Source: a virus. Taken from it: a stretch of 22,634 nt of DNA. The notes below the pieces were generated by a model. The model made no database searches and was not told where the DNA came from. It saw nothing but the letters and a program-made list of their open reading frames with translations. This document shows, piece by piece, positions 4,423 through 19,408 of this stretch (positions are counted from its first letter, which is position 1; each line of letters starts with the position of its first letter). The position numbers were made by a program, and so were the translations under genes. The stretch is taken from positions 1 to 22,634 of IMG/VR virus record IMGVR_UViG_3300030382_000719. One strand, written 5' to 3'.

Positions 4423-4631
4423 AGACAATTAAACAGTGGGTACTGTTACATGATGAGCTTCCCAGAATAGGGTCAGGCTTTAGGCATGTTAATGTTTCAA
4501 TAGGAAAGAAGTGGGCGCATATACAATCTATTGCTACTAAGGTAAGACAACGTATAAAGATAGGGAGATGGGATGAGATTGAAAGGTCTATGAAAAAATA
4601 CTTAGAAAGAAATATAAATAAAAATGTCTGA
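4419..4631 (+). CDS. Basic hypothetical protein (70 aa)
   Basis: It begins in an ATGA overlap with thyX and ends 8 bp inside the homing endonuclease gene. The 70 residues are rich in lysine and arginine (SIATKVRQRIKIGRW and a MKKYLERNINKNV tail), with a short N-terminal segment that could be a beta hairpin (KQWVLLHDELP). A nucleic-acid-binding role is plausible from charge only. No family recognised. It may have been next to the 70-aa ORF at 5348 before the endonuclease gene arrived. Confidence 0.65.
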   Translation: MKTIKQWVLLHDELPRIGSGFRHVNVSIGKKWAHIQSIATKVRQRIKIGRWDEIERSMKKYLERNINKNV

Positions 4632-5358
4632 AGCTTTTGTATATTTATGGTATGATGCAGGATGGAAGCAAACTGGTGGGCCAAGGTATTATATCGGCAA
4701 GCACAAAGGAACATTGGACAGTGGGTATGTATGTTCTTCTAAATATATGAAGCCTGAATGGGGAAAGAGAGGATGTAAAAAGGTAGGATGTAGACATCTA
4801 TTCGGAGAGGAAGGACATCATGGAGATTTCCATAGGCGTGTGCTTGCTTATGGAACTGAACAAGAGATGATAGACTTTGAGATTAAATTATTAGAAACAA
4901 GAAAAGATTATTTTGGAAGTAGGTATTATAATAGGGTGGTAATGTGGACGCCTTGTAACTCTGGTGAAAATAACCCACAGTATAAACATGGTTTGACTAA
5001 TACTTCTGAATATAAGAGAAGCAAACAAAAACGATATCGTGAAAAGAATAGAGAAAAGGAATTGTTAAGAAAGAAACAATATAGAGAACAGAATAGGAAA
5101 AAGTTAGCGTTAAAACAGAAACAATATTGTGAACAGAATAGGGAAAAGGTAGCGTTAAGACATAAACGATATAGAGAACAGAATAGGGAAAAGTTAGTGT
5201 TATATAGGAAACAATATTATGAACAGAATAGAGAAAAGATAGCGTTACGAAGTAGACAATATTATGAACAGAATAGAAAAAAGATATTGTTAAGACAGAA
5301 ACAATGGAGTGAAAGAAAGAAACTAGAAATATTGGAAAGTATTATAAGTGAAAGATAA
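4624..5358 (+). CDS. GIY-YIG family homing endonuclease with tandem basic repeats
   Basis: The 244-aa protein opens with a GIY-YIG-type nuclease core. FVYLWYD (residues 5-11) stands for the GIY strand, and RYYIGKHKG (21-29) for the YIG strand and following turn. A G-x-x-x-S block (YVCSS) follows, then a Cys/His-rich region (CKKVGCRHLFGEEGHH) and an acidic helix EIKLLETRKDYFG with a probable metal-binding Glu. Residues from about 137 form six near-identical 15-residue repeats with consensus QYxEQNREKxALRxK, long basic helices likely to grip DNA. The gene is AT-rich and lies free-standing immediately beyond thyX, overlapping both neighbours slightly. Phage nucleotide-metabolism genes are common homing targets. 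It is a selfish element, though a regulatory or exclusion role is possible. Confidence 0.8.
   Translation: MSEAFVYLWYDAGWKQTGGPRYYIGKHKGTLDSGYVCSSKYMKPEWGKRGCKKVGCRHLFGEEGHHGDFHRRVLAYGTEQEMIDFEIKLLETRKDYFGSRYYNRVVMWTPCNSGENNPQYKHGLTNTSEYKRSKQKRYREKNREKELLRKKQYREQNRKKLALKQKQYCEQNREKVALRHKRYREQNREKLVLYRKQYYEQNREKIALRSRQYYEQNRKKILLRQKQWSERKKLEILESIISER
5032..5301 (+). repeat. Six tandem 45-bp repeats (15 aa each) inside the endonuclease gene
   Basis: Counting codons, six consecutive in-frame 45-bp units run from a CGA codon at 5032 to just before the CAATGG at 5302. Each encodes a variant of [RQ]Y-x-E-[QK]-N-R-[EK]-K-x-x-L-x-x-[KR]. The central units share the DNA core gaacagaataggaaaa or gaacagaatagrgaaaag. 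Divergence between units is low, which suggests recent duplication. Copy number may vary between relatives. Confidence 0.9.
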
Positions 5359-5560
5359 GATAACCTTATTCCAGTACACCGTCTACCTCACACCACATAA
5401 TACGGTTGAGGTAGAGTCCTCTATCCTTGAGCAAGAGGATTGGGATATGGCTATGGAAGATTTCGAAGAGTATGCAGAAGCTACTACCGTTTCCAACTTC
5501 CTTGCTTACCTTAAAAAATTAATGGTATCAATTAACAGTGGAGTTACTACTTACTTTTAA
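5348..5560 (+). CDS. Acidic hypothetical protein, last gene of the plus operon (70 aa)
   Basis: It uses a GTG start (5348) overlapping the endonuclease end by 11 bp, with GGAAAG about 10 nt upstream. The 70 residues are acidic in the middle (SILEQEDWDMAMEDFEEYAEA) and end in a short hydrophobic/aromatic C-terminus (NSGVTTYF). The fold may be a small alpha/beta domain. Its TAA overlaps the stop of the opposite-strand 914-aa gene by 4 bp. Base composition is higher in GC than the endonuclease gene, suggesting this is older phage sequence. Family unknown. Confidence 0.65.
   Translation: MKDKITLFQYTVYLTPHNTVEVESSILEQEDWDMAMEDFEEYAEATTVSNFLAYLKKLMVSINSGVTTYF
5383..5439. other. Tandem inverted repeats near the operon convergence
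   Basis: CTACCTCA (5383-5390) pairs perfectly with TGAGGTAG (5407-5414). The stem can be extended by ACC/GGT across one bulged base. A second stem follows, TCCTCT (5417-5422) with AGAGGA (5434-5439). Both lie in the 5' half of the last plus-strand gene and 118-174 bp past the stop of the last minus-strand gene, so they would fold in the 3' trailer of the structural transcript. No T-run follows on either strand, so neither is a canonical intrinsic terminator. Function is uncertain. Confidence 0.4.
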
Positions 5561-8301
5561 TTTATTAGTTCTTTAACACCTTTAGCGAAACTAAAAATTC
5601 TATCTTCCCAATCTTTTCCAAAACGAAACATAACATTTGCTCTAAATCTAGTTGCTAAATCAGGGCTACTAGCATAGTGCAACTTATAATAAGAATCTAT
5701 CATATCTCCTTTGTCACCTTCCATAGCTCCTACTAAAAGCTTGTCCCCTTCTCCTTTAAGTATATTTCCTTTATCATCTCTCAGAGATCGTTCAAACATA
5801 TTTGTTACAAATAAAGCTGTTTGTTGTTCTGGTGTTAATCTACTTGCATCTTTATGTTTTCTAGCATTCTTTACCCATGCAGGTATATCATTAACATCCT
5901 TATAATGTCTTTGAAGTCTGTTTAAAGTCATATCTACATCATTGTCTCCAAACTGATAACCTCCTTTAAAACCATATTTATTTTTTGCATTCCAATTACC
6001 ATCACTTTCTATTTTTAAAACTTCATTTGTGAAATGATCAAAATTTTCTAATGCTTGTTGTCTTTGTTGGGCAGTTACATATCCTTCCTTAATTAGTCTA
6101 TTATAATTTCTATTAAAAATATCCAAAGACAATCCCGTTATATGTTTCATTTGGTTTGTATTAGGTAAAGGTTTTTCTTCTGGAATTGGTGGGGTTGCCA
6201 TTAGCTTACCCCCATCTTGCATTCCTACTACACCACCATTACGCATATCTACTACACCACCTTTAGCAAATGGTACGAAGCTATCTTGTGCTATCTGTGC
6301 ATCTTGTTTTTCCCAATCTCTTTCTAACTGTGCAAGATTTACATATCCTGTTCTCTCTCCAGTTCTTTCGTACTCTCCCTCTTCTTCAGCCGCCAGTGTA
6401 TCAAAATACTTTTGGGTTAATGGAGTAAATCCTGCTGCCTTATTCTCATCTTTTATTTTTTGATTACGTAAAGCATATGCATTCTTTATAAGTTTGTTTT
6501 GTTCTCCTACTGTTTCATCACTAAGATTATAACCGGGAGGCAATATGAACTCTGTTCCAGTTCCTCCTCCTTGCATTTGTTTTGATTGGAAATTTCCCAT
6601 AGGTCCATACTTTTTCCAATAGGCAGCATTTACATCTCTTGCCTTTCCTAATCTTTTTTCATAGTCTGCTTTATGATACTCGGAAAAATTTTTAAACCCT
6701 AGTCCTTGTGCCATTTCTCTGTTCTGTTCTATCTTTCTTTGCATCTCCGCAATTTGTTTAGGAGTTTCAAAATCACTAAGACTAGTCTGTTGGCTTTCAT
6801 CTTTATAATAAGCAGAGTCTATCTCTCCCCCATTCTCCATTAAACTAGCCTGTCCACCACTAGCCATGAGAGAGGCAGCAACTACCGCTGCTCCTACGGT
6901 ACCACCGTTACGCATATCAACTATACCTCCTGCTTTCTTACCAAAGCTGAAGCTTTCTGGATCAAACTCTTTAGCAAAGATAGACTTTATCTTTTTAGGA
7001 TCAAGGAACATATAACTAAATGCTCCATAATCTTCAACAAAATTTGGGTAAGCAAACGCATCATATCCATTGTCTTCTAAAATTTTCCATAATGCTTTGA
7101 ACCAACCATCAATTAAGGAAGGATGTATCTTTTCAGGAATAAACATATTTGATTCTGGGTCTAGTTGTTTTGTATTTCGAAATATATTTTTCATATGGAA
7201 AGTATGTGCTGCTTCCATTAATTGTTTCCATAAAGTAGGAGACATACCTTTTAATGGATCAAATTTAGCTCCTTCCATTCTACTTACTTTTGCTATAAAG
7301 TTATCTAATTTACTTAGCTTTACTTCATTTTTTAAATAAACAAATTTACCATCTTCAGGCCAGAAAATAAAATCACCGTTTTCTTTAACATACTTTTTTA
7401 AATCATCTACTGTTTCTATAGAAGGATCAAGAGTATTTTTAATAATATCTTTATTTTTCTTGAAATCTTTTTCTAAATTATCTTTTCTTAGTATATGTCT
7501 TATAGTTTTTTTAGGATTTCGTTCTACATCTATATTCGATAATTCCTCAAGCCATTTACTAGGTAGTTTAAATCTTCCCATATCAGGAACGATAGCTACA
7601 TTATCTAGCTTTGTTACAAGGGGTAGCATTGCTTGCCCTAGTTGCTCTTCCTTTTGTTTTCTAAGAGTAACACCCATTACTTTCGCTTCAGGTTTTCCTA
7701 ACATTTCATTCTGTTTACTCATAGCAGAAAGAGTACCTAAATGTATTCCTATATCCTTTCCTTCTGATTCTTTTAATAATAGTGGATTAAGATATCCTGT
7801 TCCTTCTCCTTTAGGATCAAATTGAATTTTTTCTCCTGCTCTAGTAAAATGAAAAAGAGGGACAGTATATCCTTGTTCTTGTGCTTTCCTATATGGTGCC
7901 TTCCATACTTCTGGCATCTGATTAATATCAATAGGGTCTGGTATTAATACTTCATCTGCTTCTTCTTTTGATAAACCAAGGTCTTCTACTTGTTGTCTAA
8001 GAGCAGATCGTTGGGGTTGCGAAGGTACAAGCTCATCCATCTCTTCTCTTACAGGAGGAACTACATCCATCTCTGCTATAGGTAATTGATCAACAGGAGT
8101 TTCAACTGGAGTTATAGGTGCTGGTTCTTCTGGTAGTAATCCGTATGAACTTTGTGGTATAGTTGCAAAAGATTCTGCTTCTTCTTCAGGAGTCAACACA
8201 CGCAAGGTAGGCTCATGTTTCATAATAGCTCCAGGCTCAGGACTCATAAGTTTTTGAGCGCCCTTAGTTAGAAGCTTTGCTAGTTGTGCTACTAGTGGCA
8301 T
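5557..8301 (-). CDS. Large virion protein: probable ADP-ribosyltransferase-like domain plus C-terminal lytic transglycosylase/lysozyme-like domain
   Basis: The 914-aa protein is the last gene of the structural operon. Residues 1-140 are Pro/Glu-rich linker. Residues about 145-445 resemble the ART fold of the PolyVal/phage type: PLFHFTRAG (148-156, with H151 and T153), DIGIHLGT (183-190) and a closing GYDAFAYPN...FLDPKKIKSIF block (412-442). Gly-rich hydrophobic patches follow (458-495), with VDMRNGG at 461-467 and again at 684-690. Residues about 718-914 look like a lysozyme/SLT domain: IESDGNW (catalytic candidate E765) then FKGGYQFG (778-785). By analogy with T7 gp16, the lytic domain would open peptidoglycan during DNA entry. 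An ART domain could modify host proteins after ejection. The domain assignments rest on motifs by eye; the lytic call is firmer than the ART call. Confidence 0.72.
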   Translation of the reverse strand: MPLVAQLAKLLTKGAQKLMSPEPGAIMKHEPTLRVLTPEEEAESFATIPQSSYGLLPEEPAPITPVETPVDQLPIAEMDVVPPVREEMDELVPSQPQRSALRQQVEDLGLSKEEADEVLIPDPIDINQMPEVWKAPYRKAQEQGYTVPLFHFTRAGEKIQFDPKGEGTGYLNPLLLKESEGKDIGIHLGTLSAMSKQNEMLGKPEAKVMGVTLRKQKEEQLGQAMLPLVTKLDNVAIVPDMGRFKLPSKWLEELSNIDVERNPKKTIRHILRKDNLEKDFKKNKDIIKNTLDPSIETVDDLKKYVKENGDFIFWPEDGKFVYLKNEVKLSKLDNFIAKVSRMEGAKFDPLKGMSPTLWKQLMEAAHTFHMKNIFRNTKQLDPESNMFIPEKIHPSLIDGWFKALWKILEDNGYDAFAYPNFVEDYGAFSYMFLDPKKIKSIFAKEFDPESFSFGKKAGGIVDMRNGGTVGAAVVAASLMASGGQASLMENGGEIDSAYYKDESQQTSLSDFETPKQIAEMQRKIEQNREMAQGLGFKNFSEYHKADYEKRLGKARDVNAAYWKKYGPMGNFQSKQMQGGGTGTEFILPPGYNLSDETVGEQNKLIKNAYALRNQKIKDENKAAGFTPLTQKYFDTLAAEEEGEYERTGERTGYVNLAQLERDWEKQDAQIAQDSFVPFAKGGVVDMRNGGVVGMQDGGKLMATPPIPEEKPLPNTNQMKHITGLSLDIFNRNYNRLIKEGYVTAQQRQQALENFDHFTNEVLKIESDGNWNAKNKYGFKGGYQFGDNDVDMTLNRLQRHYKDVNDIPAWVKNARKHKDASRLTPEQQTALFVTNMFERSLRDDKGNILKGEGDKLLVGAMEGDKGDMIDSYYKLHYASSPDLATRFRANVMFRFGKDWEDRIFSFAKGVKELIN
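6232..6921 (-). repeat. Duplicated VDMRNGG-type glycine motif within the 914-aa protein
   Basis: The heptapeptide VDMRNGG occurs at residues 461-467 (DNA 6901-6921) and 684-690 (DNA 6232-6252), each preceded by KxGGxV-like residues (AGGI, KGGV) and followed by a Gly/Val patch. A weaker relative (MENGGE) is near residue 488. Similar MxNGG motifs flank linkers in other marine phage virion proteins as I recall them. They may mark domain boundaries or membrane-interacting loops. Confidence 0.6.
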
Positions 8302-8528
8302 TACGATCCCTTAATTAAATAAGAAACAAACCACATTAATCCACTACCAATAAAAGCAAGGACTGTAGCTGCTCCATATACAACTGCTCTATCTTTTTCC
8401 AGTACTCTAATTCTTTCTTCGTTCTTTGTTATAAGACTATCAATTTGATTCTGTTCTCTTATAAGTAAATCCATCTTACCATCTAGTCTTCCTAGAAGAA
8501 GGTATACATCTTGCTTATCATCAGACAT
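8301..8528 (-). CDS. Coiled coil plus C-terminal TM protein (75 aa, holin-accessory/XhlA-like topology)
   Basis: The 75 residues form an N-terminal charged helix with heptads (LLLGRLDGKMDLLIREQNQI, then NEERIRVLEKDR) and then a single hydrophobic span (about 49-70) ending with KGS. This layout (cytoplasmic coiled coil, C-terminal anchor) is shared by XhlA-like haemolysin/holin-accessory proteins and several phage membrane proteins. There is no signal peptide. It overlaps the next gene's start by 1 bp. In the virion block it could also be a small structural or ejection factor. The lysis reading is only a topology-based inference. Confidence 0.68.
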   Translation of the reverse strand: MSDDKQDVYLLLGRLDGKMDLLIREQNQIDSLITKNEERIRVLEKDRAVVYGAATVLAFIGSGLMWFVSYLIKGS

Positions 8529-17529: not shown

Positions 17530-17955
17530 TTATCTAGCTGCACTTGAACCGAAATAGAAACTTACTATAGCCGCAAGCGTATGAATGTATGCAGGAGCTA
17601 ATGCAATACCATCAATAGCTTTCCATCTTACTTTATCAGCTTGCTCCCAGATTAATGGTAAAGACCATTCTCCTGATTCTGTTACTGATACAACAATAGG
17701 AATACCAAAGAAAGGGGCAGCAAATGGAACTATAACGATACAGCCTACACAGATAAGAGCGATTAATCTACGAGTAAATGCAAACTGTTTATCTTTTAAG
17801 CCATGTTCACGGGCTGCTGATACTGCCTTCTGCTGTTGAGCCATTGCAGCAATCATCATACGATGTTGTTCTGCTTTGGCTTTCATAACCTGTCCAATCA
17901 TAGTAGTTATGAAGCCCATAGCAGAGCCACCTAATAGTGTCATTACTAAGTTCAT
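17530..17955 (-). CDS. Small multi-TM membrane protein, possible holin (141 aa)
   Basis: Hydrophobic segments are at about 4-22 (glycine-rich, VMTLLGGSAMGFITTMI), 63-90 (LIALICVGCIVIVPFAAPFFGIPIVV) and 114-137 (GIALAPAYIHTLAAIVSFYF). A charged helix (25-58) separates the first from the second. Three membrane spans in a small phage protein next to an exported protease suggest a holin of the three-TM type, although no signature is decisive. It lies 6 bp after the protease stop. The alternative is a membrane-anchored assembly factor. Confidence 0.68.
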   Translation of the reverse strand: MNLVMTLLGGSAMGFITTMIGQVMKAKAEQHRMMIAAMAQQQKAVSAAREHGLKDKQFAFTRRLIALICVGCIVIVPFAAPFFGIPIVVSVTESGEWSLPLIWEQADKVRWKAIDGIALAPAYIHTLAAIVSFYFGSSAAR

Positions 17956-17961
17956 ATCTTA

Positions 17962-18798
17962 TTACTTCTTTTCAGGTTTAGGTTTTCTATTCTCTGGCTT
18001 GAGATACTTATCTCCTACGATGAAACCGTGAAAGTTATCACGTAGGAAAGTATGTACTGTCTCTGTAGGAATAGACCAACCCATATGAGTTACTGCTTGA
18101 AACCCAGCCGCTGATACTCTTGAAGGTACACCAATCATCTCATAGTGTTTACGGGTATCAGAATACGCAAACAATGCACCACCACTATTACCAAAGATAA
18201 TAGGAGCAGTTGCTAGTTGATATCGATAACCGTTAATAACTTGTTCAGCAAAAGCCATCTCTCCGCTTGTCATGGAAGGAGGATAACCTAATCCTGCACC
18301 TACTGCCCATACAGTCTGCCCTAACTTTGGCGACTCTTTCTCTGGCAGCATGTAAGCAATACGTACTACTCCACGTTCTGTATCACGTAGTTTCAATAAG
18401 GCTAAGTCTCTTTGCTCATCATGTGCTACAATATCTGCTATACGTCCACGAGTACCTACTGAACGGGAACAGCGAACATAGTCAAACCAGAATGCAGTAA
18501 CAGGTTCTCTTGTTTCTCGCTTGATCTTCTTACCTTTCATTCCATCCCATACTTCTCTTATAGTAATCTGTTCACCAATTACATGGTAATTAGTAAGGAT
18601 GTATGATTCCCATTTGCCTTCATGTTGTCTTGAATAAAGAACTGTACCAGAACCTGATGTATTAATACGTACTGCTGTATCTAACATCTCTTCATGTTGT
18701 GGTCCACAGTTTGCTGCTAGTACAGCAGATATACTAGAACAGAATAGCAGACCAGCAAATAAAGAAATTTTGATATTCTTAAAAAAGTTCTTTTTCAT
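17962..18798 (-). CDS. Secreted trypsin-like (S1/HtrA-type) serine protease with signal peptide
   Basis: With the start at 18798 the protein has 278 residues. They comprise a Sec signal peptide (KKNFFKNIK, then ISLFAGLLFCSSISAVLA, cleavage likely after A28) and a chymotrypsin-fold protease. The catalytic triad is H72 (LTNYHVI), D131 (EQRDLALLKL) and S205 in GNSGGAL. The start was chosen because of AAAGGAA (18804-18810) 5 nt upstream, the position of the signal sequence, and an adjacent 50-aa gene that would otherwise be overlapped by a 17-codon extension. Cysteines C31 and C110 may form a disulphide in the periplasm. There is no PDZ domain, so it is shorter than DegP. Its target could be a host envelope protein, a competing phage receptor or a virion protein. 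It is not a prohead protease type. Confidence 0.85.
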   Translation of the reverse strand: MKKNFFKNIKISLFAGLLFCSSISAVLAANCGPQHEEMLDTAVRINTSGSGTVLYSRQHEGKWESYILTNYHVIGEQITIREVWDGMKGKKIKRETREPVTAFWFDYVRCSRSVGTRGRIADIVAHDEQRDLALLKLRDTERGVVRIAYMLPEKESPKLGQTVWAVGAGLGYPPSMTSGEMAFAEQVINGYRYQLATAPIIFGNSGGALFAYSDTRKHYEMIGVPSRVSAAGFQAVTHMGWSIPTETVHTFLRDNFHGFIVGDKYLKPENRKPKPEKK

Positions 18799-18799
18799 A

Positions 18800-18952
18800 T
18801 TAGTTCCTTTTATTAAATAACTCAAACAGTGTCTGCACTTTTTCTTCAAGTACTTTTACACGTACTAATATCTCTGCTCTGAAGGCTATTGCTACTGCTC
18901 CCACTGCAATTACCCCAGATATAATCGGCCATATATCTACTACTTGTTCCAT
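18800..18952 (-). CDS. Small N-terminal TM / C-terminal coiled-coil protein (50 aa)
   Basis: On the minus strand an ATG (18950-18952) opens a 50-codon ORF. It encodes an N-terminal hydrophobic span (IWPIISGVIAVGAVAIAF), a basic turn (RAEILVRVK), a short leucine/glutamate heptad (VLEEKVQTLFELF) and a basic end (NKRN). It begins 1 bp before the stop region of the chaperone-like gene and stops 1 bp before the protease start, with the protease ribosome-binding site in its own last codons. The layout resembles small spanin, holin-antagonist or class II holin-like proteins. Translational coupling with the protease suggests a common envelope task. Confidence 0.7.
   Translation of the reverse strand: MEQVVDIWPIISGVIAVGAVAIAFRAEILVRVKVLEEKVQTLFELFNKRN
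18804..18810 (-). promoter_or_regulatory. Ribosome-binding site AAAGGAA that fixes the protease start
   Basis: AAAGGAA on the minus strand sits 5 nt before the ATG at 18796-18798. It decides for the internal methionine in front of the signal peptide and against a longer reading frame opening at 18849, whose first 17 codons overlap the 50-aa gene. Confidence 0.75.
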
Positions 18953-19408
18953 TTATTTTAAAGCATCAGGAACGTATACATCAATATCATCTGTGTTATT
19001 AAGGTCTGCTAGTACAGTTTCAGCATCAGGTGGAAGATCACGTAACGTAACCTTCTTAGCAGCTACACCAGCTTTATCTAATCCTTTTGGATGTACACCT
19101 TCGTCTGCCAGTTGATATTCAAGATCAAGTTCTTTTAGTTTAGCATTACGATCACTACGGATTTCCTCTAACCGCTCCGCCCGTGCTTTAGGTAGACGCC
19201 ATGCATGTGTCTTCAGAGCATCTGCTGTGATCTCTACTGCTAAAGTATCGGCGGCTGGCACAACAGCTTCCTTTGTTATAACACCATCGGCATCACGTTC
19301 AGCAGGGACTGTATTGGCCTCAACCAGTTCAGCTAAAATACCGCTGACTGATCCGGCATCACCGACACAGGTTACCGTGCCGTCGGCGTTAACTATTAGT
19401 TCATTCAT
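18953..19408 (-). CDS. Tail-fibre assembly chaperone-like protein (151 aa)
   Basis: The chosen start at 19408 (MNELIVNADGTV) has GGAG about 9 nt upstream. The longer frame from 19459 would overlap the fibre gene by 59 bp, while this start overlaps by 8. The N-terminal half is a small beta domain (NADGTVTCVGDAG). The C-terminal half has a helical stretch with the pattern IRSDRNAKLKELD...AKKVTLRDLP, which resembles the R-x-x-LL-x-D...YR-x-x-LRDLP motif of phage tail-fibre assembly (Tfa/gp38-like) proteins. Position directly after the fibre gene is classic for such a chaperone. GC is high, like the distal fibre, suggesting the pair moved together. Confidence 0.72.
   Translation of the reverse strand: MNELIVNADGTVTCVGDAGSVSGILAELVEANTVPAERDADGVITKEAVVPAADTLAVEITADALKTHAWRLPKARAERLEEIRSDRNAKLKELDLEYQLADEGVHPKGLDKAGVAAKKVTLRDLPPDAETVLADLNNTDDIDVYVPDALK

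Follow-up and report, generated by a model that had tools for sequence, protein, structure and literature searches.

A predicted Sec-exported, HtrA-like protease of a probable marine phage and its recurrent proximity to lysis genes

The canonical HtrA/Deg proteases DegP, DegQ and DegS (MEROPS S1C) carry one or more C-terminal PDZ domains. Lysis cassettes, accessory lysis enzymes and HtrA-type proteases are each already known; in the open-licence literature we found no publication that counts a protease among the lysis proteins of phages, and no precedent for a lysis role of periplasmic or trypsin-like proteases encoded by phages. Mycobacteriophage LysB is a known accessory lysis enzyme (PMC5707550, PMC8309991), encoded in the lysis cassette in addition to holin and endolysin and aimed at an outer envelope layer. 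The protease described here would resemble LysB in these respects, although LysB is an esterase, and for the protease we infer the lysis role.

The window analysed is the whole 22,634-nucleotide stretch of IMG/VR record IMGVR_UViG_3300030382_000719. A sequence-only reading had proposed a cassette of three coupled genes in which an exported trypsin-like protease lies between two membrane proteins, and all three genes were confirmed, at 17530-18952 on the minus strand. In order of transcription from the upstream neighbour, the features are:

18953..19408, minus strand: 151-aa upstream neighbour with weak similarity to tail-assembly chaperones (PF16778, E 0.0023, below cut-off), given for context only
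18800..18952, minus strand: 50-aa protein, N-terminal TM segment followed by a short coiled-coil; directly after the upstream gene
17962..18798, minus strand: protease, 278 aa, ATG at 18798 and stop ending at 17962; HtrA-like serine protease
17530..17955, minus strand: 141-aa protein, multi-TM and holin-like; phrog_38283, E 1.5e-14

From the upstream gene onward the intergenic gaps are 0, 1, 6 and 20 bases, and the proposed close coupling of the trio is borne out by the 1 base between the 50-aa gene and the protease and the 6 bases between the protease and the 141-aa gene. An AAAGGA-type ribosome site precedes the protease ATG at 18798. A longer protease frame starting from a TTG at 18849 overlaps the 50-aa gene and is unneeded; the ribosome-binding sequence of the ATG is good, and translation from it opens with a clean signal peptide. 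The 50-aa protein has no convincing family match in Pfam or PHROGs. The trio is flanked on one side by an 802-aa fibre-like gene and the 151-aa gene, and on the other by a 596-aa late gene; the label "fibre" is fair, as the 802-aa protein carries a Laminin_G_3 domain, and the label "internal virion" for the 596- and 1458-aa proteins is an inferred one.

The protease matches the Pfam models Trypsin_2 (E=9.9e-15) and Trypsin (E=2.8e-5), and the PHROGs clusters phrog_11383 (E 1.6e-14) and phrog_9683 (E 1.3e-6), phage clusters labelled "protease", neither of which has an assigned lysis role. The nearest solved structures by PDB sequence match are the protease domains of HtrA and DegQ. Comparison of an AlphaFold2 model (pLDDT 73, pTM 0.73) using VIA-align gave DegS (6ew9) as the best match (Z 23.5, rmsd 3.6 over 188 residues, 22% identity), with DegS, DegP, AlgW and related protease domains at Z 22-23.5 over ~170-190 residues; the best Foldseek E value for the model was 5e-10. 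The catalytic residues, each invariant in two alignments of the family (A1, 28 sequences, and A6, 35 sequences), are encoded as follows:

18583..18585, minus strand: catalytic H72 codon
18406..18408, minus strand: catalytic D131 codon
18184..18186, minus strand: catalytic S205 codon, within the GNSGG motif

The numbering H72/D131/S205 given earlier is correct when counted from the ATG, and the triad is intact. Triad and GNSGG motif are invariant throughout A1 and A6, the latter reaching down to ~38% identity, and also in the homologue of Microcystis phage Mae-JY35, which is 24% identical; the protease is therefore no chance ORF. Cys31 and Cys110 were, by eye, both present or both absent in each member of A6, as would be the case for a disulphide formed in an oxidising compartment (the periplasm). 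The protease-domain fold, the H-D-S triad, the GNSGG motif and predicted Sec-type export are thus common to the phage enzyme and DegS, DegQ and DegP. In contrast to these, the phage chain stops soon after the protease domain, its family is restricted to viruses, and no PDZ domain was found (the 278-aa protein matches trypsin models only, and the longest family ORF has 372 aa). Because the PDZ domain is missing, sequence and model together identify an "HtrA-like protease domain" rather than a canonical HtrA protein.

The export signal of the protease lies at its N-terminus:

18712..18798, minus strand: predicted Sec signal peptide, residues 1-28/29, cleavage between VLA and A or between LAA and N

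A rule-based export signal was found in 34 of 35 family members, in agreement with the Sec signal peptide proposed earlier, whereas of 144 background ORFs in these loci only 4 had one; the sole member failing the rule (L023) begins at a contig edge. The mature protease is 96% identical to that of locus L009, whereas the signal peptides of the two are 28% identical. The same pattern is seen more widely, with signal peptides 24–32% identical and mature parts 89–96% identical when the window (18712-18798) is compared with L009, L011, L013 and L017. These comparisons suggest an export signal that turns over rapidly between phage backgrounds yet is kept. The mature protease has a dN/dS of 0.03-0.09 (where computable), indicating purifying selection. 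Export of the protease, as predicted from these sequences, is well supported.

Pattern scanning and alignment identified at least 400 IMG/VR loci encoding relatives of the protease. In GTDB, 84,980 species genomes gave 4 hits, all on short MAG contigs, of which three (L114-L116) have virus-like neighbours and one (L117) is ambiguous, as it carries cell-type genes; on these grounds a bacterial origin of the protease was rejected. Among annotated phage records, Mae-JY35 alone has a detectable homologue, and it is the only isolate found with one. The family is restricted to viruses, widespread, and mobile among phage backgrounds. A 53-kb relative, G001, encodes a protease 76% identical to that of the window. 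Because the G001 terminase is ~50% identical to terminases of Pelagibacter and Roseobacter phages, the window, whose own terminase lies outside the contig, probably derives from a related marine phage.

Outside a set of close relatives (L002-L005, L025 and L026; partly L011, L027, L028 and L042), the protease is not accompanied by the 50- and 141-aa partners; the 50-aa protein is 78-98% identical in L002-L005, L025, L026, L011, L028 and L042. Dozens of relatives encode proteases that are 72-92% identical next to different neighbours; elsewhere the protease adjoins an upstream Hsp20 gene, a 129-aa 3TM protein, coiled-coil TM proteins of 85-111 aa, holins, spanins or endolysins. The protease thus does occur elsewhere without the two membrane genes, the outcome that had been named as refuting the proposal, so the trio is lineage-specific and its proposed standing as a fixed system is lost. 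A looser association, of the protease with lysis and membrane genes, replaces it. Two further features of these loci were observed. A gene for the small heat-shock protein Hsp20 repeatedly lies immediately upstream of the protease (in L056, L061, L091-L093 and many of the loci from L009 to L024), and in HTVC104P (L049) an Hsp20 gene lies upstream of a 3TM gene of the 141-aa family with the protease absent. In four loci (L010 4161-4445, L014 5663-5947, L015 3407-3691 and L016 4710-5039) the protease gene shares its 3' end with the gene of a secreted-looking protein of ~94 aa, which could be a partner or inhibitor of the protease.

Proximity to endolysin, holin or spanin genes recurs across lineages. 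In Mae-JY35 an amidase, a small TM gene, an Rz-like spanin (phrog_1026), an Rz1-like spanin (phrog_1275), a TM-coiled-coil gene and the protease lie in a row, and in L152 so do the protease, GTA_holin_3TM (E 7e-19), a coiled-coil TM gene and a GH24 lysozyme, with a similar arrangement in L030-L032 and L041. A SAR-like GH24 lysozyme is encoded two genes upstream of the protease in L116; an M15 endolysin adjoins the protease in L059, in L089 and, on the opposite strand, in L063/L064/L068. A search of 46 contigs bearing the protease revealed GH24 lysozyme (PF00959) in 6, at no more than ~1.4 kb from the protease in every case. The Rz1-like spanin phrog_1275 was recognised in 3 of the 49 records searched for it, all three times within ~1.1 kb of the protease; in most protease-bearing contigs searched, no Rz1-like spanin was recognised. 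Four lineages are exceptions, having a recognised M15 endolysin 6-25 kb from the protease (G034, G039, the G006/G012/G015 group and G019).

A permutation analysis of contigs with a recognised endolysin, taking one per lineage as far as could be judged and random placement as the null, found an endolysin within 2 kb of the protease in 9/13 contigs, compared with 3.5 expected (p 0.0005), and in 6/10 contigs of at least 10 kb, compared with 1.7 expected (p 0.002); the samples are of modest size, and in these counts some lineages are possibly not fully independent and some loci were first noticed by context, but whole contigs were counted. A small TM neighbour was present for 18/32 protease clusters (80% identity) and 29/150 background genes (p 5e-5). 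Structural or DNA-metabolism genes also adjoin the protease in many contexts (L063, L074 and L083). The idea that the protease substitutes for spanins is weakened by their coexistence with it in Mae-JY35, L059 and L067; since the Mae-JY35 and L059 cassettes already hold spanins, the enzyme is not simply a spanin substitute.

The family of the 141-aa protein was found in 27 phage records, with relatives in Pelagibacter and Roseobacter phages, and occurs also without the protease, both in other contigs and in cultured Pelagibacter and Roseobacter phages. The earlier description of three TM segments rests on hydropathy; a simple scan agrees for TM2 and TM3, the first hydrophobic stretch being weaker. 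In size and hydrophobic layout the protein is similar to GTA_holin_3TM (PF11351), and it holds a place in the window equivalent to that of the PF11351 holin, which adjoins the protease in L152 and lies nearby in L030-L032, L041 and L158. It differs in having no Pfam holin match, to PF11351 or otherwise, and no convincing profile-profile match (from very shallow profiles, hhalign to GTA_holin_3TM gave a probability of 0.7% and E 0.076), and profile comparisons did not establish homology to either these holins or the 129-aa 3TM protein. Relatives of the 141-aa protein in HTVC024P (gp35; L047 4989-5420) and in Skadi phages are labelled "peptidase M15". We rejected this label for the family: gp35 has no Pfam match, belongs to phrog_38283, and has TM segments and no obvious zinc site, which makes misannotation probable in HTVC024P and the Skadi phages.

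That no classical endolysin is visible in the window holds for the main late genes, scanned with Pfam and PHROGs, and for the whole contig, searched for M15_3, phrog_465 and Amidase_2 endolysins without a hit; a family search of the 53-kb relative G001 likewise found no GH24, M15_3, phrog_465 or Amidase_2 endolysin. This falls short of showing absence, the window being a 22.6-kb fragment that encodes one protein with a weakly lysozyme-like C-terminus:

5557..6210, minus strand: C-terminal part of a 914-aa protein, with weak similarity to lysozymes/transglycosylases; the window's only peptidoglycan hydrolase candidate

This region matches PF06737 (E 0.046) and the tail lysozyme cluster phrog_27932 (E 0.023), and tblastn links it to HTVC203P (E 7e-7) and the Atu_ph04 tail lysozyme (E 0.009). 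No relatives of it were found in an IMG/VR scan, none of the comparable large proteins encoded in L100, L102, L103 and L105 has a homologous C-terminus, and its AF2 model (pLDDT 49) is too poor to judge. The C-terminus, whose gene adjoins that of a 75-aa coiled-coil TM protein, may be the peptidoglycan hydrolase of this phage or a virion-borne one. The 914-aa protein as a whole (5557-8301, minus strand) is a mosaic in which DGG/NGG-type motifs recur. Its large counterpart in L102 has an ART-PolyVal domain, which suggests that such proteins are polyvalent. A conserved protein of 73-76 aa, with a coiled-coil and then a C-terminal TM segment and weakly DUF7201-like, is encoded at the end of the late operon (window 8301-8528, minus strand; L050 17644-17865; L100 5331-5561), and is a possible second small lysis-type membrane protein. 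Elsewhere in the window, the C-terminal half of a 244-aa ORF (4624-5358, plus strand) consists of tandem similar basic repeats (RKQYREQNREK-type); its N-terminal half may be a homing-nuclease-type domain.

From the gene context, we tentatively propose, at somewhat less than even confidence, that this HtrA-like envelope protease is made late, is exported by Sec and assists holin and endolysin during the lysis phase. Of the roles suggested for it before, lysis assistance is retained as the leading option for an exported protease, catalytically intact by sequence, in an envelope-directed cluster, and is detached from the trio as a fixed system. Weighing against it are the four lineages with a distant M15 endolysin, the many contexts in which the protease has structural or DNA-metabolism neighbours, and the failure of the family searches to find an endolysin in the window or in G001. 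In such a mechanism the protease would be exported before holin triggering and build up in the periplasm, where it would cut host envelope proteins, most simply the ties between outer membrane and peptidoglycan, or outer-membrane proteins. Once the endolysin acts, the outer membrane would yield, and the debris would capture fewer progeny. Its partners in the window would be the 141-aa protein, probably as a holin-like component, and the 50-aa protein as a small membrane component.

Several other roles were weighed against this. The export signal and conserved triad would also suit a protease that removes or clips outer-membrane receptors, resulting in superinfection exclusion and in debris that no longer inactivates progeny, and a host-takeover gene might well be placed as loosely in the genome as the protease is in several lineages. 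In phage T5, Llp serves against such inactivation of progeny by debris. Llp, a receptor-blocking lipoprotein that blocks FhuA, provides a precedent for receptor inactivation (PMC9586334); the purpose is possibly common to both, although Llp is not an enzyme. An exclusion gene is, however, expected early, whereas the protease lies in a late operon with structural and lysis genes, and its product, with no surface-anchoring signal, would be periplasmic and hardly able to reach external loops. We consider receptor clipping unlikely. The kinship with DegS, DegQ and HtrA, the nearest relatives by fold and sequence, together with the recurrent upstream Hsp20 chaperone gene, might instead point to a phage DegP/DegQ-like activity that clears misfolded periplasmic or outer-membrane proteins and keeps the cell intact until timed lysis. 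DegP-type quality control uses PDZ domains, which no member examined has, and Hsp20 is cytoplasmic and adjoins the 141-aa family without the protease in HTVC104P; a role in envelope proteostasis thus seems quite unlikely.

Small coiled-coil TM genes are the commonest direct neighbours of the protease, which would fit an enzyme that processes or releases a phage lysis protein, such as a membrane-tethered endolysin or the coiled-coil TM partner, rather than cutting host proteins. The SAR-like lysozyme of L116 is also compatible with this, and proteolytic release of a tethered endolysin has been proposed for Mu, where the releasin is only hypothesised (PMC9239132). The neighbouring endolysins are, however, of unrelated types (GH24, M15 and amidase), most without signal anchors, and such maturation appears improbable. 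A virion protein, a morphogenesis protease or a passenger gene moved with late-gene modules, in each case without a lysis role, would explain why the protease sits among structural genes, is mobile between backgrounds and in several lineages lies far from recognised lysis genes. A prohead or virion protease would be expected to be cytoplasmic and to have no export signal, whereas this family has kept its signal peptide (34/35) though it diverges in sequence, making a cytoplasmic role unlikely, including the cytoplasm-processed virion component that had been named as the alternative; the low dN/dS speaks against neutrality of a passenger. This group of explanations is likewise improbable. Among the readings, a role in the lysis phase is the most likely, with a chance we would put slightly below even; the protease would weaken the attachment of the outer membrane to the wall, or rid the debris of outer-membrane proteins.

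More doubtfully, exported HtrA-like proteases may represent an unrecognised class of phage lysis proteins, mainly of aquatic phages, that use proteolysis to break the outer membrane or whatever tethers it. Published models of Gram-negative phage lysis comprise holins, endolysins, spanins, disruptins and releasins, and a widespread exported protease in lysis neighbourhoods would add an enzymatic way to handle the outer envelope. The family provides a directly testable candidate for outer-membrane opening where no Rz1-like spanin is recognised.
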